Assembly (NCBI RefSeq): GCF_025717535.1
Contig: NZ_JAJIRO010000002.1
Location: 744,001 to 808,000, forward strand
Direction: 5' to 3'
DNA length: 64,000 bases
Origin: Paucibacter sp. Y2R2-4
GTDB lineage: Bacteria; Pseudomonadota; Gammaproteobacteria; Burkholderiales; Burkholderiaceae_C
Positions 19,994-31,171 of the stretch are shown one piece after another (within the stretch, counting starts at the first letter, position 1; each line of letters starts with the position of its first letter). Made by a program: the position numbers and the translations under genes. The notes under the pieces were generated by a model that did not search any database, was not told where the DNA came from, and was given only the letters and a program-made list of their open reading frames with translations.

Positions 19994-20479
19994 TTAAAGG
20001 AATCGCTCGAGAATCTTCTTCGACGGGCGATCCAGGGCAAAGCGGTCTTGCACCATCAATTGCAGGCCGTGGCTGCTGGAGATCAGCAGCCGGCCCTCGC
20101 CCAGGCGGCGAATGTCTTCTTCGGTCTTCAGAATGAAGCGGGTCTCGCCCCGGTCGGTCTCCACCGTCCATTGGCTGGGGGTAGAGAAGGTCGAAACCTC
20201 TTTGATGCGCTGAATCATGGGCACGAACTCGCGGCTGGCCAGCTCAGCCGTCAGCAGCTCGCGATCAGTCGCCGGCAAATCGCTGAGCCGGTCAATCCAG
20301 GCCAGCTCATGGCCATCGCTGCCCAGCAGCGAAATACCTTCATCCGGCGCCGAGATCGGGTGCGCGCGCACCACATTGATGTCGCGGTGTTCCTGGCCCT
20401 GCAGATCGGTCAGCACCAAGCGGCCAAAGGCATTGCGCGAGAGTTTCTGAAAAATCGCCATGGTCTTGTTCTCACTCAT
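19994..20479 (-). CDS. DUF1854 protein of the cyanophycin locus
   Basis: 161 residues. The hallmark is LTDLQGQEHRDINVVRAHPI near the N-terminus, then GISLLGSDGHELAWIDRLSDLP and the ETRFILKTEEDIRRL stretch; all are typical of the DUF1854 family, which is repeatedly found beside cyanophycin genes. Function unknown; soluble, no catalytic motif recognised. Its start overlaps the stop of the ABC transporter by 4 bp (ATGA), so the two are coupled and probably act together. The ATG at 20479 is used; MAIFQKL at 20461 is an alternative. Confidence 0.88.
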   Translation of the reverse strand: MSENKTMAIFQKLSRNAFGRLVLTDLQGQEHRDINVVRAHPISAPDEGISLLGSDGHELAWIDRLSDLPATDRELLTAELASREFVPMIQRIKEVSTFSTPSQWTVETDRGETRFILKTEEDIRRLGEGRLLISSSHGLQLMVQDRFALDRPSKKILERFL

Positions 20480-22755
20480 GCTTGAGCCGTATGGGCGTTC
20501 AGATTGGGCAACATCGGCGGCACCTCATCGCCATCGGCATCCACGCGACGTGCCTGCGCCTCATACAAGCGCCAGTAGGCGCCCTGCTTGGCCATCAGCT
20601 CGTCGTGCGGGCCTTCTTCGACCACTTGGCCGCGATCCATCACCACCAGGCGGTCGGCCTTGCGCAGCGTCGACAGGCGGTGAGCAATCGCAATCGTGGT
20701 GCGGCCCTTGACCAGGTTGTCGAGCGCCTTTTGGATTTCTTTCTCGGTTTCGGTGTCCACCGAAGAAGTGGCTTCGTCCAAGATCAGGATGCGCGGGTCG
20801 ATCAGCAAGGCGCGCGCAATCGAGATGCGCTGACGCTCGCCGCCGCTCAGACCTTGGCCGCGCTCACCCACCAGCGAGTCGTAGCCCTGAGGCAGACGCA
20901 AGATGAACTCATGCGCATGGGCGGCGCGAGCTGCGGCGACGATTTCTTCGCGGGTTGCATCGGGCTTGCCGTAAGCGATGTTCTCGGCAATGGTGCCGAA
21001 GAAGAGGAAGGGCTCTTGCAGCACCAGGCCGATATGGCGGCGGAAGTCGGCCACCGCAATGCGGCGCAGGTCGACGCCGTCCACGCGAATGCTGCCTTCG
21101 GTCACGTCATAGAAGCGGCAGATCAGGTTCACCAGCGTGCTCTTGCCGGAACCGGAGTGGCCGACCAAACCAATCATTTCACCGGGCTTGATGTCCAGGC
21201 TCAGGCCGCGAATCACCGCCCGATTGCCGTAGCGGAAGCCGATGTCATGGATCTGCAAGCCGCCGCTAATCTTGGGGCTGGGCACCGGATTCGTCGGCTC
21301 CGGCACATTCGACTGGTGGTCCAAGATATCGAAGATGCGCTTGGCGCCTGCGGCCGCTTTTTGCGTCACCGAGACGATGCGGCTCATCGAGTCCATGCGG
21401 CCGTAGAAGCGGCCGATGTAGGCAATGAAGGCGGTCAAGACACCGACCGTGATTTCCTGCTTGGACACCAAGTAAATACCAAAGGCCCAGACCACCAGCA
21501 AGCCGAACTCGGTCAGCAACGACACGGTGGGCGTGAACAAACTCCAGGTTCGGTTCAGCTTGTCATTGACCTTGAGGTTGTTGGCATTGGCGTCGCGGAA
21601 GCGCTGCGCCTCGCGCTTCTCTTGCGCAAAGGCCTTCACCACTCGGATGCCCGGAATGGTGTCGGCCAGCACCGAAGTCACCTCGCCCCAAACCCGGTCG
21701 ATCTTCTCAAAGCCGGTGCGCAGACGATCACGCACGCGGTGAATCATCCAGGCGATGAAAGGCAGCGGCAGCAAAGTCACCAGCGCCAGCCAGGGGTTGA
21801 TTGAGAACAGGATGGTGGCTGTCATCAGCAGCATCAAGACGTCGGTGATGAAGTCCAGCGCATGCAAAGAGAGAAACACGCTGATGCGGTCGGTTTCCGA
21901 GCCGATGCGACTCATCAGGTCGCCGGTGCGCTTGTTGCCGAAATACTCCAGCGATAGGCTCAGCAAATGGTCAAAAGTGGCCGTGCGCAAGTCAGCCGCG
22001 ATGCGCTCGGAAGCCAGCGAGAGCAAATAAGTCTTGGCCCAGCCCAGCAACCAGGACACCAGGGCTGCACCAAACAAGCCGCTCAGAATCAGCGCCACCA
22101 GCCAGGGGTCGATCTTTTGACCGTTCTGGAAGGGAATCAAAACCCGGTCCATCAGCGGAATGCTCAAGTAAGGCGCCACCAGCGTGGCCGCCGTCGAGCC
22201 CAGCATCAGGGCAAATCCGCCCAGCAACTGACCTTGATAAGGCTTGGCAAAGCGGCTCAGACGCAGCAAGACCCAGGTGGAGGGCGGCGTGTGCAGCTCG
22301 CGGTCGCAAGTCGGGCACTCCTCGCTCTCGGGCGGCAGCGGCGCCTTGCAGCTGGGGCAGTACTCCAGGTCTTCGGCCGTCTCGCGCGGCGGCGCGTCGC
22401 CCTGCTCGATGCGGCGCTGAAAGGCTTCTTGCCAGCGCTGCGCCTGCAAATTGATCTGCAAGGTGAAGCGCCAAATGGCCAAACGGCCTTGGGCGTTGAG
22501 CAACTCCAAGGCGCCAACGCCAGCTTGGTCGGAGATTTGCATGCTCATCTCGGCCTGCAAGTCCCAATCCGTCCAGTTCCCCGTTGCCGGGTCCCAGGCC
22601 AGCAAGCGCCGGTTCGTCAACACCAGCAAGCCGCTGGCGAAGCGCAGCTGCGAGTCCAGGTCAACCTCCAGCGGGGCCAGGACGTTCTCCTGGGCAAGCA
22701 GCCGCGATTGACACTCCGCCCATTTCGGGTGCTGCAAGGACACTTCAACTGACAT
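20476..22755 (-). CDS. ABC half-transporter of the cyanophycin locus
   Basis: 759 residues. The first 130 form a soluble beta-rich domain, then a zinc ribbon (CPSCKAPLPPESEECPTC), six transmembrane helices of an exporter-type domain (LLGGFALMLGSTAATLVAPY onward; PFIAWMIHRVRDRLR), and a nucleotide-binding domain with Walker A GLVGHSGSGKST, signature LSGGERQR, Walker B ILILDEATSSVD and the switch His in IAIAHRLST. This domain order fits the transporter described next to cyanophycin synthetase genes. Substrate unknown; an arginine/aspartate dipeptide or polymer-related compound would be a guess. It is divergent from cphA', with 292 bp between them. Confidence 0.9.
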   Translation of the reverse strand: MSVEVSLQHPKWAECQSRLLAQENVLAPLEVDLDSQLRFASGLLVLTNRRLLAWDPATGNWTDWDLQAEMSMQISDQAGVGALELLNAQGRLAIWRFTLQINLQAQRWQEAFQRRIEQGDAPPRETAEDLEYCPSCKAPLPPESEECPTCDRELHTPPSTWVLLRLSRFAKPYQGQLLGGFALMLGSTAATLVAPYLSIPLMDRVLIPFQNGQKIDPWLVALILSGLFGAALVSWLLGWAKTYLLSLASERIAADLRTATFDHLLSLSLEYFGNKRTGDLMSRIGSETDRISVFLSLHALDFITDVLMLLMTATILFSINPWLALVTLLPLPFIAWMIHRVRDRLRTGFEKIDRVWGEVTSVLADTIPGIRVVKAFAQEKREAQRFRDANANNLKVNDKLNRTWSLFTPTVSLLTEFGLLVVWAFGIYLVSKQEITVGVLTAFIAYIGRFYGRMDSMSRIVSVTQKAAAGAKRIFDILDHQSNVPEPTNPVPSPKISGGLQIHDIGFRYGNRAVIRGLSLDIKPGEMIGLVGHSGSGKSTLVNLICRFYDVTEGSIRVDGVDLRRIAVADFRRHIGLVLQEPFLFFGTIAENIAYGKPDATREEIVAAARAAHAHEFILRLPQGYDSLVGERGQGLSGGERQRISIARALLIDPRILILDEATSSVDTETEKEIQKALDNLVKGRTTIAIAHRLSTLRKADRLVVMDRGQVVEEGPHDELMAKQGAYWRLYEAQARRVDADGDEVPPMLPNLNAHTAQA

Positions 22756-23047
22756 GTGAGGGTGCACTCTCGTGATAAGCCCGCCGCCCCAAAGAGACGC
22801 CAGGCAAGGTTTGACCCCCGGATTTTCACCCAGATGCAGAAGCCGGCGTCTAAATTGAGTCCTTCTTCACAAAACTAGCGCCACGCCCCGAGTCACACAA
22901 AGCCTACAAAGCTCGCTGAAACGATGGCCCAACTGAGCGCACAATTGCGCCCTGCCATGCTTAACGACGCCCGGTGAACTTCACCTGTTGGCAAGCCTGG
23001 CCCCAATTCACGCCAAAGCATGCGGCCCTGAACCGGCCCCCTCATCC
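22756..23047. other. Divergent control region of the cyanophycin locus
   Basis: 292 bp between the ABC transporter and the cphA-like genes, lower in GC in the middle (22850-22920). No gene. It must contain both promoters; I could not fix -35/-10 boxes or a recognised operator. The cphA' ATG at 23048 has no clear ribosome-binding site, so an upstream alternative start (TTG at 22988) remains possible. Confidence 0.45.
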
Positions 23048-25237
23048 ATGAGCAAGAAAGAAGACATCAAGCTGTTGCGCATCAACTATTTGCGCGGCCC
23101 CAATATGTGGACTTACCGTCCCGTGCTGGAGGTCTGGCTGGATCTGGGCGAGTTGGAAGACTTCCCGACCAACAAGCTGGACGGCTTCACCCCCCGCCTG
23201 ACCACCGCCCTGCCGGCCTTGATCGAGCACCACTGCGGCGTTGGCGAGCGCGGCGGCTTCTTGCAGCGCCTGGAAGAAGGCACTTGGTGCGGCCATGTGT
23301 TGGAGCACATCGTCATCGAGCTACTCAACCTCTCGGGCATGCCCACCGGCTTTGGCCAGACTCGCTCGACCAGCCAGCACGGCGTCTACCGCATGGTCTT
23401 CCGGGCTCGCGACGAGCAGGTCGCCCGCAGCGCCTTGGCCGAAGGCCATGCGCTCTTGATGGCCACCATCAATAGCGAGCCTTTTGACGTCAATGCCGCC
23501 GTGGCTCGCATCCGTGACAAGCTGGACGACTGCTACCTCGGCCCTTCGACGGCCGCCATCGTGGCCGCCGCCACCGACCGCCGCATTCCGCACATCCGCC
23601 TGAACGACGGCAATCTGGTGCAACTGGGTCATGGTGCCCGCCAACGCCGCATCTGGACGGCCGAGACCGACATGACCAGCGCAATTGCCGAAGGCATTGC
23701 GGGCGACAAAGACCTGACCAAGACTCTGCTCAAGTCCGTGGGCGTGCCGGTGCCAGATGGCCAGGCCGTCAAGACCCCGGCCGAGGCCTGGGAAGTGGCG
23801 CAGGACCTGGGCCTGCCGGTAGTGGTCAAGCCCAGCGATGGCAATCATGGCCGAGGCGTGACCCTGGATCTGCAAAACCAAGCCGATATCGAAGCCGCCT
23901 TCAAAGTGGCCGATGAAGAAGGCTCAGAAGTGCTGGTGGAGCGCTATATCCGCGGCAACGAGCACCGCCTGCTGGTGGTGGGTGGCCGGGTGGTGGCCGC
24001 CGCGCGCGGCGAGGCCGCTTGGGTGGTTGGCGATGGCCGTCAAACGGTGCGCGAACTGGTGGACCACCAGATCAACACCGACCCGCGCCGGGGTCTGACC
24101 GAAGAATTCCCGCTCAACCGCATCACCCTGGGCGACGACCCGGTGGTGATTCTGGACCTGCAGCGCCAGGGCCTGACGCCCGAGGCAGTGCCGGAGGCCG
24201 GCCGCCAAGTGCTGATCCAGCGCAATGGCAATGTCTCCATCGATTGCACGTCAGAGGTGCACCCGGACGTGGCCCATGCGGTCTCGCTGGCGGCCCGTGT
24301 GGTGGGCCTGGACATCGCCGGCGTCGACCTGGTCAGCGAAGACATTGGCAAGCCGATGAGCGAAACCGGCGCCGCGATTGTGGAAGTCAATGCTGGCCCC
24401 GGCCTCTTGATGCACTTGAAGCCCGCCGGCGGCAGCCCGCAGCCCGTGGGCAAAGCCATCATCGACCATTTGTTTGCTGAAGACGAATCGGGCCGCATCC
24501 CGGTGGTGGGCGTGGCCGGCTCGCGGGGCACCCACACCATCAGCCGCCTGGTCGCCTGGCTCTTGCATCTGAATGGCCGCCATGTCGGCCTGGCCTGCCG
24601 CGACGGCCTGTTCCTGGGCAGCCGCCGGGTCGAACGCCGCGCCTCCAACAACTGGGACGCTTCGCACCGCCTGCTGATGAACCGCACCGTGGACGCGGTG
24701 GTCATCGAAAACAGCGCCGCCTCCATCTTGCGCGATGGTCTGGCCTATGACCGCTGCCAAGTCGGCGTGGTCACCGATATGGGCGGCATGGACAGCTTGA
24801 GCGAGTTCGATGTGCAAACCGAGGCGCAGCTGTACAAGGTGCTGCGCACCCAGATCGACGTGGTGCTGTCCGAAGGCATGGCGGTGCTGAACGCTGCTGA
24901 GCCCGAGTTGCTGGAGATGGCCGAGCTGAGCGATGGTGATGTGCTGCTCTACGCGCTGGACGGCAGCCTGCCGGCCCTGGTGGAACACCGCGCCAAGGGC
25001 GGCCGCGCTGTCTTCTTGCAAGGCGGCGCTGCGGTGTTGGCCGATGGTGCTTCAGAAACTGTGGGCGCCAATGTCGACGCCTTGCTCAAGCGCTTCACCG
25101 CCACGCAGACCGCGGTCGGCGCCGAAGTGGACGCCGGCATTGTGCTGGCGGCCGTGGCGACCGCCTGGGCCATGAATATTTCGCCTGAGCTGATCTCTGC
25201 AGGCATGGACACCTTCGTGCCCGAACTGGCCGCCTGA
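23048..25237 (+). CDS. cphA': Cyanophycin synthetase-like protein with degenerate Mur domain
   Basis: 729 residues. N-domain (about 1-165) with GHVLEHIVIEL (His83, Glu86, His87, Glu91), which looks like the HxxEH zinc-peptidase-type site known in some CphA N-domains. ATP-grasp domain (about 220-480) has VVVKPSDGNHGRGVTL and the terminal VEVNAGPGLLMHLKP. The C-terminal Mur-ligase-like domain has VAGSRGTHTIS where a working enzyme has GTNGKTT, so the P-loop lysine is replaced (Thr495), and the domain is about 110 residues short. It probably cannot add arginine by the Mur site. It lies 59 bp before cphA on the same strand. Confidence 0.93.
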   Translation: MSKKEDIKLLRINYLRGPNMWTYRPVLEVWLDLGELEDFPTNKLDGFTPRLTTALPALIEHHCGVGERGGFLQRLEEGTWCGHVLEHIVIELLNLSGMPTGFGQTRSTSQHGVYRMVFRARDEQVARSALAEGHALLMATINSEPFDVNAAVARIRDKLDDCYLGPSTAAIVAAATDRRIPHIRLNDGNLVQLGHGARQRRIWTAETDMTSAIAEGIAGDKDLTKTLLKSVGVPVPDGQAVKTPAEAWEVAQDLGLPVVVKPSDGNHGRGVTLDLQNQADIEAAFKVADEEGSEVLVERYIRGNEHRLLVVGGRVVAAARGEAAWVVGDGRQTVRELVDHQINTDPRRGLTEEFPLNRITLGDDPVVILDLQRQGLTPEAVPEAGRQVLIQRNGNVSIDCTSEVHPDVAHAVSLAARVVGLDIAGVDLVSEDIGKPMSETGAAIVEVNAGPGLLMHLKPAGGSPQPVGKAIIDHLFAEDESGRIPVVGVAGSRGTHTISRLVAWLLHLNGRHVGLACRDGLFLGSRRVERRASNNWDASHRLLMNRTVDAVVIENSAASILRDGLAYDRCQVGVVTDMGGMDSLSEFDVQTEAQLYKVLRTQIDVVLSEGMAVLNAAEPELLEMAELSDGDVLLYALDGSLPALVEHRAKGGRAVFLQGGAAVLADGASETVGANVDALLKRFTATQTAVGAEVDAGIVLAAVATAWAMNISPELISAGMDTFVPELAA

Positions 25238-25296
25238 CTCAAGACTGAAGTCCGAGTCAAAGCGCCCGAACACTAGATTCCCGAGGAAGAGCAAAC

Positions 25297-27876
25297 ATGG
25301 AAGTCTCTCGCACCCGCGCCCTGCGCGGCCCGAATATGTGGAGCCGCCACACCGCCATCGAAGCCGTGGTGCACTGCACACCGGCCGAGCAGTCGATTGC
25401 CGACATGCCCGAGTTCGAGGCCCGGCTGCGCGCCCTCTTCCCCAGCATCGGCCCGCTGCGGCCAGCCAGCGCCAAGCGCACCCCAATCTCGCTGGCCCAT
25501 GTGCTGGAGCAAGCCACCCTGGCCCTGCAAGCGCAAGCGGGTTGCCCGGTCACCTTCAGCCAGACCCATGTGACCTCCGAGCCCGGAAGCTACCAAGTGG
25601 TGGTGGAGTACAGCGAAGAAGACGTCGGCCGCATGGCTTTTGACGCGGCTTGCAAGCTGGTGGAAGCGGCGCGGGATGGCGGCAGCTTCGATGCCGACGC
25701 CACGCTGAAGGAACTGCGCGATCTGGACGAAGACGTGCGCCTCGGCCCCTCAACCGGTTCCATCGTCAACGCCGCCGTGGCGCGCGGTGTGCCTTATCGC
25801 CGCCTGACCCAGGGCAGCCTGGTGCAATTCGGCTGGGGTGCCAAGCAGCGCCGCATCTGGGCCGCCGAGGTGGACGCCACCAGCGCCGTCAGCGAATCGA
25901 TCGCCCAAGACAAAGACCTGTGCAAGCGCCTGCTGCAATCGGCCGGCGTGCCGGTGCCGACCGGGCGTCCGGTGGAGTCCATCGACGATGCCTGGGCCGC
26001 CGCGCTGGAGATCGGCTTGCCGGTCGTGGTGAAGCCGCAAGACGGCAACCAAGGCAAAGGCGTGACTGTCAATGTGGTGACGCGCGAGCACATGGAAATC
26101 GCCTACAAGGCGGCCGACGAAATCGGCCAGGTCATGGTGGAAAAGTTCCTGCCCGGCAGCGACTACCGCCTGCTGGTGGTGGGCGACAAGCTGGTGGCCG
26201 CCGCACGCCGCGACCCGCCGCATGTCATCGGTGACGGCCAGCTGACCGTCAAGCAATTGGTCGACAAGGTCAATGCCGACCCCAAGCGCGGCGATGGCCA
26301 CGCCACCTCGCTGACCAAGATCCGCTTCGACGACATCGCCGTGGCGCGCCTGACCCAGCAAGACCTGACCCCCGATTCGGTGCCTGAAAAAGGCCGCCGC
26401 GTCATCCTGCGCAACAACGCCAATCTGTCCACCGGCGGCACCGCCACCGATGTAACCGACGATGTGCACCCCGAAGTGGCGGCTCGCGCCATTGCTGCGG
26501 CACAGGTCGTGGGCCTGCATGTCTGCGGCGTCGACGTGGTGGCCGAAAGCGTGCTGCGGCCGCTGGAAGAAATCAACGGCGGCATCGTCGAAGTGAATGC
26601 CGCGCCGGGCTTGCGCATGCACCTGTCGCCGTCCTACGGCAAGGGCCGCAATGTCGGTGAGGCCATCATCTCGCACCTCTATGGCCACGGCCACAAGAGC
26701 GAAGACGGCCGCATTCCGGTCGTCGCCGTCACCGGCACCAATGGCAAGACCACCACCTCACGCCTGATCGCCCATCTGTTCGCCACCTGCGGACTCAAGG
26801 TGGGCATGACCAATACCGACGGGGTTTACGTCGATGGCCGCCAGATCGACAGCGGCGATTGCTCCGGCCCCAAGAGCGCCCGCAATGTGCTGATGCACCC
26901 CGATGTGGAAGCGGCCGTGTTCGAGACCGCCCGTGGCGGCGTGCTGCGCGAGGGCCTGGGTTTTGACCGCTGCCAAGTGGCCGTCGTCACCAACCTCGGT
27001 GCCGGCGACCACCTGGGCATGAACTTCCTCAATACCGTGGAAGAGCTGGCCCTGGTCAAGCGAGTCATTGTGCAAAACGTTGCGCCTAACGGTTATGCCG
27101 TGCTGAACGCGGCCGACCCGGTGGTCGCCAATATGGCCAGCACCTGCCCTGGCCAGATCATCTTCTTCGCCGCCGACCGCCACCATCCGCTGATGGCCAC
27201 GCACCGCGCCCAAGGCAAGCGCTGCGTTTATGTGGACGGCGATCAGCTGGTGGCCGCTCAGGGCAGCTGGCGCGAAAACATTCCGCTGCGCGACATCCCC
27301 ATCACCCGCAATGGCGCGATCGGCTTCCAGGTCGAAAACGCCATGGCCTCGGTGGCCGCCGGCTGGGGTATCGGCATCGACTGGGACACCATACGCCGCG
27401 GCGTGGCCAGCTTCGCCAATGACGCCGACAACGCACCCGGCCGCTTCAATGTGATGGACTATCGCGGCGCCACCGTGATTGCTGACTACGGCCATAACGC
27501 CGACGCCATGCGGGCCCTGGTGGCGGCCGTGGCCGCACTGCCGGGCAATAAGCGCTCGGTGGTTATCAGCGGCGCCGGCGACCGTCGCGACGAAGACATC
27601 CGCGAGCAGACCGTCATCTTGGGCTCTGCCTTTGATGATGTGATCCTGTTCCAGGACGCCTGCCAACGCGGCCGCGAAGACGGCGAGGTGCTGGCCTTGC
27701 TGCGCCAAGGCCTGGAGGGCGCCGAGCGCACCAGCTTCATCGACGAAATCCGCGGCGAGTTCGTCGCCATTGACTCTGCGCTGGCGCGACTGCAGCCGGG
27801 CGATCTGTGCCTGGTGCTGGTCGATCAGGTGGAAGAAGCGCTGGCCCATTTGGCCAAACGAATCTCTGAAGGCTGA
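25297..27876 (+). CDS. cphA: Cyanophycin synthetase with intact ligase centres
   Basis: 859 residues, normal for CphA, which builds the Asp-Arg polymer multi-L-arginyl-poly-L-aspartate with ATP. The ATP-grasp domain has VVVKPQDGNQGKGVTV and EVNAAPGLRMHLSPS. The Mur-like domain has an intact P-loop TGTNGKTTT (Thr479-Thr487, Lys484), FETARGGVLREGLGFDRC, VVTNLGAGDHLG and APGRFNVMDYRG. In the N-domain, the place of the HxxEH motif reads AHVLEQATLAL (His68, Gln72, Ala76), so the second His and final Glu are lost. ATG at 25297 has GAGGAAG upstream. It pairs with cphA' just upstream. Confidence 0.97.
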   Translation: MEVSRTRALRGPNMWSRHTAIEAVVHCTPAEQSIADMPEFEARLRALFPSIGPLRPASAKRTPISLAHVLEQATLALQAQAGCPVTFSQTHVTSEPGSYQVVVEYSEEDVGRMAFDAACKLVEAARDGGSFDADATLKELRDLDEDVRLGPSTGSIVNAAVARGVPYRRLTQGSLVQFGWGAKQRRIWAAEVDATSAVSESIAQDKDLCKRLLQSAGVPVPTGRPVESIDDAWAAALEIGLPVVVKPQDGNQGKGVTVNVVTREHMEIAYKAADEIGQVMVEKFLPGSDYRLLVVGDKLVAAARRDPPHVIGDGQLTVKQLVDKVNADPKRGDGHATSLTKIRFDDIAVARLTQQDLTPDSVPEKGRRVILRNNANLSTGGTATDVTDDVHPEVAARAIAAAQVVGLHVCGVDVVAESVLRPLEEINGGIVEVNAAPGLRMHLSPSYGKGRNVGEAIISHLYGHGHKSEDGRIPVVAVTGTNGKTTTSRLIAHLFATCGLKVGMTNTDGVYVDGRQIDSGDCSGPKSARNVLMHPDVEAAVFETARGGVLREGLGFDRCQVAVVTNLGAGDHLGMNFLNTVEELALVKRVIVQNVAPNGYAVLNAADPVVANMASTCPGQIIFFAADRHHPLMATHRAQGKRCVYVDGDQLVAAQGSWRENIPLRDIPITRNGAIGFQVENAMASVAAGWGIGIDWDTIRRGVASFANDADNAPGRFNVMDYRGATVIADYGHNADAMRALVAAVAALPGNKRSVVISGAGDRRDEDIREQTVILGSAFDDVILFQDACQRGREDGEVLALLRQGLEGAERTSFIDEIRGEFVAIDSALARLQPGDLCLVLVDQVEEALAHLAKRISEG

Positions 27877-28725
27877 GACCGGCTCTAAGCCCGAGCGGGA
27901 GCCTGTGATCGCCTTTTTTCGCTGAAGGCGGCATAGCGCCCGGAGCGGACTGTTTGGTTTTGCGTGTGAGGCACGGCAGCCCAGGCCGTCGCTGGGCTCA
28001 TGGCTCGGGGGTCGGCCCTGGTGGGCCGACTGCCTTGCGCTGCTCGCAACTTGGGGCCGGCTCCGAACTCACTGCACTCGCTGCGCTCGTTCCGTTCAAA
28101 CATGCGGAGCCAAGCTAGAGGTGGAAGCGCGCTGCGCGCGCGCCCCAAGTCGCTGCGCTGCTCAGCCCCTCACAAATCGCCCAACAACGGCCCGGGCTAC
28201 CGTGCGCCTGCATAGCGAACGCCGTGCTTCTCCAACCGTGCCAAGAGCCCGGTTCGCATTGACTCGGCCCGCCGACGGGCGATTTGTGCTCGGCCGAGAG
28301 CGCAGCGGAGCGGGTCAGGCGCGCACAGCGCGCTTCAACTGCTGACTTGGCAGCCCCTGTTTGAGCGCAGTGAGCTTGCGCGAACGAAGCGAGTTGGCTG
28401 CCGCTGACCCGCGCAGTGAGCACCGAGGGAAGTCGGCTCGCCAGAGCCGACCCGGGAACCATGAGCACGGCGGCGGGCCGAGTCAATGCGCGTGTCAGAG
28501 CCTCAGAGGGAAGACAGCTCCGGGCACTTTGCTGTCGGTCACTCTCGGCAAGCGCTGTGATCCAAGGCAAAAAGGTGGCGCATTTCGCAGACATTGGTAT
28601 CGACTGCCGCAGGGCGCGAGGCGAGAGCCTCGTGCCTTTTCTTCTGCCGCGCCCATCCTTGGCGGCATGAGCCGCTACCATCGGCGCCATTCCAGCTTTC
28701 TTCACGGGACGCGCCTGCCCCACCC
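27877..28725. other. Gene-free stretch after cphA
   Basis: About 850 bp without a credible gene. Open frames exist on both strands, but they are rich in Arg, Ser and Ala and arise from high GC. It is largely made of an imperfect inverted repeat (see the repeat entry) with strong small hairpins. The right end (28540-28725) leads into gspA and should hold its promoter; I could not place it. Confidence 0.7.
27935..28535. repeat. Large imperfect inverted repeat, pair of elements
   Basis: Arm 1 about 27935-28200 (plus) and arm 2 about 28255-28535 (minus), aligned by eye. Exact anchors: CACAAATCGCCC at 28171-28182 against GGGCGATTTGTG at 28277-28288; GAAGCGCGCTG at 28124-28134 against CAGCGCGCTTC at 28326-28336; GCTCATGGCTC at 27996 against GAACCATGAGC near 28456. 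Each arm carries an 8-bp tetraloop hairpin near its outer part: GTCGGCCC/GGGCCGAC at 28011-28030 and GTCGGCTC/GAGCCGAC at 28432-28451. So two related non-coding elements sit head to head. Confidence 0.75.
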
Positions 28726-30456
28726 ATGTACGCGAACTTCTTTGGCCTGAAGCAAGAGCCCTTTTCGATCGCCCCGGACCCGCACTACCTCTATATGAGC
28801 GAGCGGCACCGCGAGGCGCTGGCGCATCTGCTCTACGGCCTGCGCGGTGGTGGCGGCTTTGTGCTTTTGACCGGCGAGATCGGCACCGGCAAGACCACCG
28901 TCTGCCGGGCCTTTTTGGCGCAAACGCCGAAGCGCTGCAATGTGGCCTATATCTTCAACCCCAAGCTCAGCGTCAGCGAGTTGCTGCACACGGTGTGCGA
29001 GGAATACGGCATCCAGCACCACCAGGCCTTGCCCAAGCAGGGCGAGGCCGCTGGCTCGGTCAAGCCTTTTGTCGATGCGCTGAATGAGTTCTTGTTGCGC
29101 ACCCATGCGGTCGGGCAGAACAACATCCTCATCATCGACGAGGCGCAAAACCTCTCGGCCGAGGTGCTGGAGCAGTTACGCCTGCTGACCAATTTGGAAA
29201 CCCATGAACGCAAGCTGCTGCAGATCATCTTGATCGGTCAGCCGGAATTGCGCGATATGTTGGCGCGGCCGGAGTTGGAGCAACTCTCGCAGCGGGTGAT
29301 CGCACGCTTTCATCTGCCGGCTTTGTCGGAGGCGGAGACCGCTCACTATGTGCGCCACCGCATGGGCGTGGCCGGCTTCAGCGCCGCCCTGCCCTTTGAT
29401 GCCAAGGCTCTGAAACTTGTGCATCAGCTCGCGCGTGGCGTGCCGCGCCGCATCAATCTGCTGTGCGACCGCGCCCTGCTCGGCGCCTATTCGCAAGAGC
29501 GGGCGCAGATCGATTCGCGCACCGTGGAGCGGGCGGCGGCTGAGGTGTTTGGCCCGGAAGCTCTGCCGCGCCCTTGGCTGAAACGCAGCGCAGCGCGCTG
29601 GAGTCTTGGGCTACTCAGCCTGGCAGTGCTCGGCGCTGCCGCCGGCGGCGCATGGGTCTGGCAAGCGCGCAGTGGCACGGCAAGCCTCATGGCCACGGCA
29701 GCCATCGCAAAGCCGTCTTCGACACCCGCCCTGCCGGCCGCATCAAGCGCCAGTGCCGTCAGTCGCCCTGCAGCGTCAGCCGCAGAAGCCAAGCCCGCAC
29801 CTGCTCCGGCAGCAACAGCTCTCAGCCTGGGCCTGCGCAGCGAAGGCCAGGCCTGGCAAGCCTTGGCCCAACTCTGGGGGGCTGAGGCGCCCGAACTCGA
29901 AGCCTGCGCCGCCCTGGCCCGCCAGCAATTGCAGTGTTTTCGCAGCAGCAAGGTCAACAGTGGTGACGGCGGCCTGAGCCTGCTGCGCCTGCTCAATCGC
30001 CCGGCTCTGCTGAGCCTGCGCGATGAGGCGGGTCAGCCTTTTTATGTCTTGCTGCTGCGCCTAGACGATCAAACCGCCACCTTGAGCTTGGGCAATCAAA
30101 CGCAGCGCATCTTGCTCTTGGCGCTCAGCCAGCAATGGCGCGGCGAGTTCAGCACCTTGTGGCGCGCGCCTGCGGGCTACAGCACCCGTGGGCCCAATAG
30201 CGCCTTGCAGCCCTGGGTGAAGACGCAGCTAGACAAAGCCTTTGGTGAAGCCTCGCCTTCGTCGGAATCGATGAAGCAAGACCAGAAGAGCAGGCTGGCC
30301 GCCTTCCAGCGCGCGCAAGGTTTGCGCAGCGACGGCCAGACCGGCCCGGTCACCTTGATGCTGCTGAATGCAGTGGCCGGTGTCGATGAGCCGCGGCTGC
30401 AAGCCAGCGCCGAAAAGCCTGCATCGGGCAAGCCAGCCGCCAGCTCGGCACCCTGA
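28726..30456 (+). CDS. gspA: GspA/ExeA-type AAA ATPase
   Basis: 576 residues. The start MYANFFGLKQEPFSIAPDPH is diagnostic for ExeA/GspA. Walker A is TGEIGTGKTT (Lys56) and Walker B ILIIDEAQNLS near residue 130. A single transmembrane helix lies at about 285-305 (SLGLLSLAVLGAAAGGAWVW), then an Ala/Pro-rich linker and a periplasmic C-terminal peptidoglycan-binding domain ending MKQDQKSRLAAFQRAQGLRS. Together with GspB it is known to help insert the type II secretion secretin through peptidoglycan. ATG 28726 is chosen for the motif although the frame is open further upstream. gspB follows after 22 bp. No other gsp gene is in the window. Confidence 0.93.
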   Translation: MYANFFGLKQEPFSIAPDPHYLYMSERHREALAHLLYGLRGGGGFVLLTGEIGTGKTTVCRAFLAQTPKRCNVAYIFNPKLSVSELLHTVCEEYGIQHHQALPKQGEAAGSVKPFVDALNEFLLRTHAVGQNNILIIDEAQNLSAEVLEQLRLLTNLETHERKLLQIILIGQPELRDMLARPELEQLSQRVIARFHLPALSEAETAHYVRHRMGVAGFSAALPFDAKALKLVHQLARGVPRRINLLCDRALLGAYSQERAQIDSRTVERAAAEVFGPEALPRPWLKRSAARWSLGLLSLAVLGAAAGGAWVWQARSGTASLMATAAIAKPSSTPALPAASSASAVSRPAASAAEAKPAPAPAATALSLGLRSEGQAWQALAQLWGAEAPELEACAALARQQLQCFRSSKVNSGDGGLSLLRLLNRPALLSLRDEAGQPFYVLLLRLDDQTATLSLGNQTQRILLLALSQQWRGEFSTLWRAPAGYSTRGPNSALQPWVKTQLDKAFGEASPSSESMKQDQKSRLAAFQRAQGLRSDGQTGPVTLMLLNAVAGVDEPRLQASAEKPASGKPAASSAP

Positions 30457-30478
30457 GCCCAAGAAAGCCAAATGCGCC

Positions 30479-31171
30479 ATGTCCTACATTCTTGAAGCCC
30501 TGAAACGCGCCGAGGCCGAACGCGAGCGCGGCAGCTTGCCGACGCTGATGAGCCAGACCGTGGGAGTGGACGCGCCCACGCCGGCCAGCCCGGCGCCCGC
30601 CTCCAAGTCGGGCCTGCGTCTGGCCGTCGGCCTGGCCGCTGTGCTCGGTGTTTTGGCCTTAGGGGCTTGGCTGGGTCGAGGTTTGGGGTCGGACGAGGCG
30701 ACGCCTGCTGCGCCGCCGCCAGCCCAGCCAGCGGCGGTATTGCCAGAGCCTGCGCCCATAGTCAGCACTGAAGCCCCACCTGTGCCCTTGGCCAGCCGGG
30801 TCGTGCCGCCACCGCCGGTGATGGAACCCGTGCCCGCACCCAACACCCCATCGCACATGGCGCAGAAAGAGCCGAGTCCGGTCTTGAGCAAGAGCGCCTC
30901 GACAGAGCCCGTCGCTGCGCCCACCGCCCCCACACCGGCGACCGCGATCCCCGCGCTGAAAGACCTGCCTGAAGCACTGCGCCGCGAGGTGCCAGCGCTC
31001 AGCGCCAGCGGCGCGATGTACTCAGAGATTCCGTCCAAGCGCATGCTCATCATCAACGGCCAGCTGCTGCAAGAAGGCGCACGCGTGACGCCGGACTTGA
31101 CGCTGGAGCAGATCGAGCTGAAGAGCGCGGTGCTCTCTTTCAAAGGCCAGCGCTTTCGCATCAGCTACTGA
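30479..31171 (+). CDS. gspB: GspB-type secretion accessory protein
   Basis: 230 residues. MSYILEALKRAEAERERGSL is the GspB N-terminus, followed by one transmembrane helix (LRLAVGLAAVLGVLALGAWL, residues about 43-62), a long Pro/Ala-rich periplasmic spacer (about 75-165), and a C-terminal globular domain MYSEIPSKRMLIINGQLLQE. GspB pairs with GspA in the inner membrane to place the type II secretin. The gap after gspA is 22 bp, so both form an operon closed by the hairpin at 31184. ATG at 30479. Confidence 0.92.
   Translation: MSYILEALKRAEAERERGSLPTLMSQTVGVDAPTPASPAPASKSGLRLAVGLAAVLGVLALGAWLGRGLGSDEATPAAPPPAQPAAVLPEPAPIVSTEAPPVPLASRVVPPPPVMEPVPAPNTPSHMAQKEPSPVLSKSASTEPVAAPTAPTPATAIPALKDLPEALRREVPALSASGAMYSEIPSKRMLIINGQLLQEGARVTPDLTLEQIELKSAVLSFKGQRFRISY

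Follow-up and report, generated by a model that had tools for sequence, protein, structure and literature searches.

Two adjacent cyanophycin synthetase genes of Paucibacter sp. Y2R2-4, here termed A and B, divide between two chains the three active sites that CphA1 enzymes carry on one: A keeps the site of the N domain and has lost the aspartate pocket of the G domain and the Mur site, while in B the N site is lost and the other two are retained. We regard the split as a variation, apparently new, on a known enzyme; the tandem cphA genes themselves are already in print. We consider it likely that A is a primer-making endo-cyanophycinase subunit and B a primer-dependent polymerase of aspartate and arginine. 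This reading combines observed residue states, phylogeny, complementary selection and tandem linkage with site functions that are presumed by analogy with other CphA1s.

Layout and distribution of the tandem pair

The pair lies in a stretch of 64,000 nucleotides (the window), whose coordinates are used throughout. Both genes, and hence all the features within them given below, are on the plus strand, with A first and a gap of 59 bp: A (23048..25237) begins with an ATG and encodes 729 aa (749 aa if read from a TTG further 5', at 22988), and B (25297..27876) encodes 859 aa. Against TIGR02068, the CphA1 equivalog model, B scores 963.4 bits, above the curated cut-off of 850, and A 701.2 bits, below it; A does exceed the cut-off of the wider model NF010623 (1020.3 bits versus 877). 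The PDB matches of both copies are CphA1 and CphA2 from other bacteria, followed by remoter ligases. Divergently oriented on the minus strand are genes for an ABC exporter (20476..22767; NF052233, cyanophycin metabolism-associated ABC transporter, 1385.8 bits, cut-off 880) and a DUF1854 protein (19994..20479; NF052234, cyanophycin metabolism-associated, 225.9 bits, cut-off 150), the association of both families with cyanophycin being already in their NCBIfam names. On the 3' side of the pair, 28594-31171 encode an AAA ATPase (below the cut-off of its nearest NCBIfam model, pepcterm_ATPase) and a GspB-like type II secretion factor, with no evident cyanophycin connection. A promoter scan gave no signal above shuffles.

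Of 300 surveyed genomes from the order to which the window belongs, 108 have a cyanophycin synthetase match above the curated cut-off; we examined 100 regions, five further survey loci and the window itself. These loci comprise 93 tandem pairs, two B genes truncated at the end of a contig and eight stand-alone CphA1s; three carry a second, different kind of pair. A lies directly 5' of B on one strand in all 93 loci of the order in which both are visible. Five pair genomes outside the fetched regions (G160, G242, G137, G118 and G020) were viewed together with G010, G029 and eight others, and A adjoins B in 7/7 of these further pair genomes, A being cut in G160 and B by the contig in G029. Split reading frames occur in both copies: A is in two pieces in L205 and B in two overlapping pieces in G010 (G010:C67), due to either sequencing error or true breakage.

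A scan of named genomes gave at least 593 pattern matches, and the best 80 of 587 confirmed stretches were kept; the ranking was by similarity to the window's A, so this set does not count as independent of that protein. They come from Roseateles, Paucibacter, Acidovorax, Variovorax, Polaromonas, Rhodoferax, Aquabacterium, Sphaerotilus and other genera, and by A protein the nearest named relatives among them are an unclassified Burkholderiales MAG and strains of Roseateles and Paucibacter. Among these best 80 of the 587, A is followed by B in 79, the remaining locus (L225) stopping after A. The divergent ABC exporter and DUF1854 genes stand 5' of the pair in 67 of these 79, and in most of the remainder a contig end interrupts the locus; three of the best 80 (L172, L179, L185) show no ABC match above 500 bits in the 3.4-3.9 kb upstream.

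Residues were counted in 171 A proteins, which form 144 groups at below 90% identity, and 172 B proteins. The counts leave out the partial A of L014, the two halves of the L205 A, the B of L120 and L130 (contig ends), the L146 and six f7 proteins considered below, and SuCphA1 itself. If the sites are scored as present or absent, every A is N+/Asp- and every B is N-/Asp+/Mur+, with three contig-cut B as the sole exceptions, and all three sites are present in 19 of 19 stand-alone CphA1s, which were drawn from the order, the class and the phylum. Chance as the source of the N-site split is ruled out, for the 171 A and 172 B follow the pattern without a single departure at that site.

Residue states of the two copies

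The N site of SuCphA1, which resembles that of metallopeptidases and has the signature Cx19HxxEH found in 83% of CphA1s, is a slow endo-cyanophycinase that makes primers (PMC9262961). In an alignment with SuCphA1 from the PDB, H61, C63, H83, E86, H87 and E91 of A (23228..23320) coincide with H57, C59, H79, E82, H83 and E87, and all six are identical in 171 of 171 A. The initial annotation, whose coordinates and residues for both copies agree with the open reading frames and alignments, had reported His83, Glu86, His87 and Glu91 as kept and had named the alignment of the N domains as a check that could refute it; HVLEH falls exactly on the metal site, and H61 and C63 make up the full set of six.

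For the G domain, the TeCphA1 structure assigns K220, K261, D431 and E450 to ATP/Mg, R309 to the primer end and H267 to the acylphosphate; for the incoming aspartate it provides N394, R323, R458 and the space next to S396 (PMC9427784). In A, K220, K261, E300, R309, D431, E450 and N452 are invariant across all 171 proteins, the P-loop DGNHGRG (23837..23857) retains the H267 equivalent (H in 169/171), and the pocket has its own set of conserved residues. Its aspartate pocket is gone: G321 (24008..24010) occupies the R323 position, L454 (24407..24409) that of R458, and the G-omega loop is shortened (NGNVS, 24224..24238) by a deletion of five residues at 396-400 that includes the S396 equivalent. 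R323, S396 and R458 are each missing from 171 of 171 A, which leaves A unable to bind aspartate in the known way. The earlier statement that both copies keep ATP-grasp motifs is accurate for the ATP residues; it passes over the loss of this pocket in A and a Q in place of H267 in B.

The Mur P-loop of A survives as a remnant, VAGSRGTHT (24512..24538). A has no match to any Pfam Mur domain and its alignment to SuCphA1 stops at residue 722, short of the Mur lid, all as expected from the original remark that the first copy has no working Mur P-loop and a shorter C-terminus. R561 is absent from 171 of 171 A, although the Mur P-loop and DH persist in 10 of them. A structure model of A (pLDDT 77, pTM 0.55, 27 sequences), which bears out the fold only, has a TM score of 0.80 to TeCphA1 (7wae), with pLDDT mostly 76-96 in the Mur core. 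Thus, among the defining features of CphA1, A has the N-site Cx19HxxEH and neither the aspartate pocket nor the Mur site; among those of CphA2, it is Mur-less with a shortened C-terminus, and it contains the N motif whose absence marks that family.

This mixture raises the alternative that A is CphA2-like, its G domain joining ready-made beta-Asp-Arg dipeptides or pieces, such that A recycles while B synthesises. The absence of Mur function and lid, the invariant ATP residues, a residue other than Arg at position 458 (L in A, Y and F in two CphA2 structures, 7ta5 and 8fxh) and the T352, P356, K462 and A464 that A has in common with Stanieria CphA2 fit this idea. However, Stanieria CphA2 retains R323 and the ANLSSGG loop, both lost in A, and CphA2 is described as being without the N-site motif (PMC9262961) that every A keeps, making A its opposite on each of these points. 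Nor is A closer to CphA2 in its G domain as a whole: in a comparison with one CphA2 sequence over a subset of 43 A, 43 B and 19 stand-alone proteins, the likeness is 0.371 for A, 0.374 for B and 0.373 for the stand-alone enzymes, and 8 A-specific columns match CphA2, versus 8 for B. Further, in three pairs from outside the order (f210, below) the G domain of A decays. A is ruled out as a CphA2 by its overall identity, by its N motif and by its lack of R323 and of the loop, a few shared pocket residues notwithstanding, and we regard a CphA2-like role as very unlikely.

The losses in B are the converse. Its degenerate N-site helix AHVLEQATLAL (25495..25527) retains H68 and E71, equivalent to H79 and E82, with Q72 and A76 replacing H83 and E87; a deletion has removed the H57-C59 loop. 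Across the 172 B the site is always lost: H57 and C59 occur in none and H83 in four, even though H79 is retained in 157 and E82 in 128. The aspartate pocket is intact (26209..26616), with R305 and R440 equivalent to R323 and R458 and the loop NANLSTGG at 26416-26439; it is complete in every B but one contig-cut protein. Likewise, the Mur site has the P-loop VTGTNGKTTT with K484 (26728..26757) and D571 H572 (27007..27012), aligned with SuCphA1 D585 H586; both Mur_ligase_M and Mur_ligase_C are matched in Pfam, and the site is complete in 169 of 169 uncut B. The description of the second copy as keeping TGTNGKTTT (K484) and losing the metal residues (Q72, A76) is therefore borne out, and can be extended by the two Mur domains and the deleted loop. 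In sum, B has what distinguishes a CphA1 in its G and M domains (R323, N394, S396, R458 and the ATP residues; the Mur P-loop, D585 H586 and the lid), lacks the N-site Cx19HxxEH, and fits the primer-dependent minority. A further peculiarity is Q252 (26050..26052) at the H267 position, where H is found in only 2 of the 172 B.

At two positions involved in subunit contacts the copies behave alike. W672 of the SuCphA1 tetramer is conserved neither in A nor in B and is thus uninformative on assembly. E215 of TeCphA1, a residue that extends over to the other half of the G dimer, has given way to small residues in either copy, with an E at 214 in 90 of 93 A and 93 of 93 B.

Selection, phylogeny and the origin of the split

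Per-domain selection, estimated from 23 close relatives as the median of pairwise Nei-Gojobori values, is complementary between the two copies. In A, dN/dS is lowest in the N domain (0.197), with 0.296 for the whole G domain, 0.478 for the Mur core and 0.486 for G-omega, the aspartate module; in B, it is highest in the N domain (0.280), with 0.231 for G, 0.218 for G-omega, 0.214 for the Mur core and a minimum of 0.172 in the lid. The relaxed Mur core and G-omega of A, together with members that are split or frameshifted (L205), are what one would see if A were a redundant duplicate in decay. That notion is rejected by the universally conserved N site, the domain of A with the lowest dN/dS, and by the presence of A wherever a contig covers the upstream side of B; we assign it a negligible probability.

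Within the Mur core of A, 6 of 235 positions are invariant, and two of them are R600 and D604 (24845..24859), the equivalents of SuCphA1 603 and 607, which are Mur residues contacting cyanophycin in the N site (PMC9262961). The probability of this coincidence by chance is about 5e-4, and hence the core looks to have been retained both to wall the N-site cleft and to serve as a scaffold. The residues themselves are R and D in A versus S and E in SuCphA1, and the SuCphA1 cleft contacts Y14, E90 and T101 are unconserved in A. Of 92 A from the order, 10 still possess the P-loop, DH and some or all of the lid; at least seven changes of this trait are counted on the B tree (FastTree), suggesting that Mur loss in A probably happened repeatedly.

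In a G-domain tree of 71 rows, A forms one clade (support 100/100) and B another (91/81), and the two group with the protein of L146 (99/99) apart from the stand-alone CphA1s; support of 79/78 is too low to fix the branching order among A, B and L146. In L146 (also L241; G416:C9), the same ABC and DUF1854 genes adjoin a gene for a CphA that has Q267, an intact aspartate pocket and an intact N site; its Mur site is intact as well up to where the contig stops inside the gene. No other copy was found in this genome, where the contig end leaves room for a second copy downstream. In its residues L146 resembles a pre-duplication state, though 8% genome contamination and a contig ending inside the gene make it a weak ancestor.

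Three genomes of the f7 group (L037, L039, L043) contain the tandem pair plus a second, divergent CphA-like pair, in which aspartate and Mur residues are kept, the N site is lost in both members and position 267 is Q. By eye only, isoaspartyl peptidase-like and cyanophycinase-like frames were seen nearby in L037. An N-terminal extension of 230-275 aa in an f7 protein was discarded as apparent, since in L037, at any rate, it is an open frame 5' of the first Met.

The H267 pattern invites another interpretation, namely a divided G site, with H267 chemistry supplied by A, the aspartate pocket by B, and neither adding aspartate alone. Indeed, H267 is present in 169 of 171 A as against 2 of 172 B, the aspartate pocket is confined to B, and H267A is described as inactivating in SuCphA1 (PMC9262961). 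However, H267 works on a loop of its own protomer in TeCphA1 (PMC9427784). Moreover, Q267 accompanies an otherwise complete G domain in L146 and f7, so that Q267 in B is poor evidence for a dead G site; and H267 is found in the B of two order pairs and of two of the three outside pairs, whose A have L, R or A at this position. Complementary G sites are rejected on these grounds, and we see this option as highly improbable.

The outside pairs (f210: L298, L299 and L300) come from the same class and lie beyond the order. Besides the substitutions at 267, one of their A proteins lacks K220, D431 and most of G-omega, pointing to a decaying G domain, while all retain HCHEH, R603 and D607, and their B proteins retain the aspartate and Mur sites. 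The N site is thus the sole catalytic site of A retained in every lineage examined, with the caveat that f210 offers few pairs, namely three. The occurrence of A-B pairs outside the order might reflect horizontal transfer or an older origin.

A proposed two-chain arrangement of priming and synthesis

We propose that a cyanophycin synthetase gene was duplicated and that its three active sites were then divided between the copies. B would add aspartate by its G domain and arginine by its M domain, and A, through its N site and the cleft-lining residues of its Mur core, would cut long cyanophycin into short pieces that become the primers of B. Being without an N site, B alone is expected to behave like a primer-dependent CphA1. 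We infer from the above not only the cutting by A and the primer dependence of B, but also a cooperation of the two in which the A:B ratio would set priming against elongation. The initial annotation had envisaged a split between primer making and arginine ligation, which conservation, selection and phylogeny support, with the amendment that aspartate addition too must be B's, the pocket of A being gone. Its assertion that both are needed is too strong given that primer-dependent CphA1s such as TmCphA1 exist (PMC9262961). As for a putative mixed oligomer of A and B, for which the tandem genes and the retained Mur-core fold of A are indirect hints, we see the chances as evenly balanced.

Precedents for action across chains come from experiments with SuCphA1: its isolated N domain rescues a primer-dependent enzyme (TmCphA1) in trans, and an artificial, cyanophycin-making heterodimer of the form N-G+M+/N+G-M- equals the cis arrangement when primer is supplied and is somewhat lower in activity when it is not (PMC9262961). 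The latter drop suggests that separating the N site onto the other protomer costs something. The distribution of sites in that heterodimer is equal to the one seen here; there, however, it resulted from point mutations and forced dimerisation, whereas the A-B pair appears to have evolved.

Counting against A as a pure primer maker are its conserved ATP and own pocket residues, which such an enzyme should not need and which decay only in the three f210 pairs. Within the order, these residues may be read as serving a re-joining of cyanophycin pieces, in keeping with some CphA2-like residues, or a structural function of bound ATP. If pieces are re-joined, the carboxylates of the acceptors would already be bonded and R323 and R458 unneeded. 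A more elaborate scheme, in which A and B form an obligate hetero-oligomer, the A:B ratio governs chain number and length, and, within the order, the conserved G domain of A, able to use ATP and blind to aspartate, re-joins cyanophycin pieces in addition to the cutting by the N site, strikes us as unlikely.

It is also conceivable that A is a mobilising enzyme whose N site degrades stored cyanophycin, rather than making primers, in bacteria that are mostly devoid of cyanophycinase. Cleavage of cyanophycin is the known activity of the N site (PMC9262961), and a recognisable cyanophycinase is reported in only 2.8% of 903 CphA1-bearing betaproteobacterial genomes (PMC10206079). Yet the N site of SuCphA1 is slow and used for priming (PMC9262961), all 19 stand-alone CphA1s have this site as well, and the window's own genome encodes two cyanophycinases above the curated cut-off, making such a role for A rather improbable. 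These two cyanophycinases, just above the TIGR02069 cut-off, belong to a putative cyanophycin-scavenging cluster away from the window (L160, contig C5:1-20000), along with two TonB-dependent receptors, a YfcC-like antiporter, a desuccinylase-like protein that matches no NCBIfam model, an AraC-type regulator and an arginine succinyltransferase-like protein.

Setting the preferred reading, A as primer maker and B as polymerase, against known enzymes, the domain order and fold are those of CphA1 (SuCphA1, 7lg5 and 7txv; TeCphA1, 7wae), with A sharing the N-site residues and B the aspartate and Mur residues, but what is there on one chain is here on two. Like the primer-dependent TmCphA1 (7lgn), B combines polymerase sites with the lack of the N-site motif; TmCphA1 is, however, described as lacking all four motif residues, with no companion mentioned in the accessible part of the report (PMC9262961), whereas B often has H79 and E82 and has A as its neighbour. 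Tandem genes are on record as cphA1/cphA2 of Sideroxydans (PMC5178258), as two cphA with an ABC transporter and no cphB in the 'Group 1' clusters of activated sludge (PMC10687191), and as two homologues in wild-type R. eutropha, in which no cyanophycin was seen (PMC11362209). These are probably the same type of locus as A-B, and divided active sites go unreported in the accessible portions of the three papers. Our literature search, with most subscription journals outside its scope, turned up no account of a synthetase that is divided or hetero-oligomeric, and an earlier description is possible. Adames reportedly pointed out in 2013 that a motif is missing from one of the R. eutropha copies.

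The pair is of interest for separating two activities regarded in the literature as bound to a single chain. With priming and synthesis on a single chain, their balance cannot be tuned by expression, as has been argued (PMC9262961); this betaproteobacterial group appears to have separated the two, and the balance could be tuned there by expression. The split offers a reason for the occurrence of tandem cphA genes matching one general model (NF010623), and the pair supplies proteins that are N+ and N- by nature, with which the primer model can be tested. In practical terms, expressing only one gene of a pair may yield little polymer, while A and B together are a possible two-part production system.
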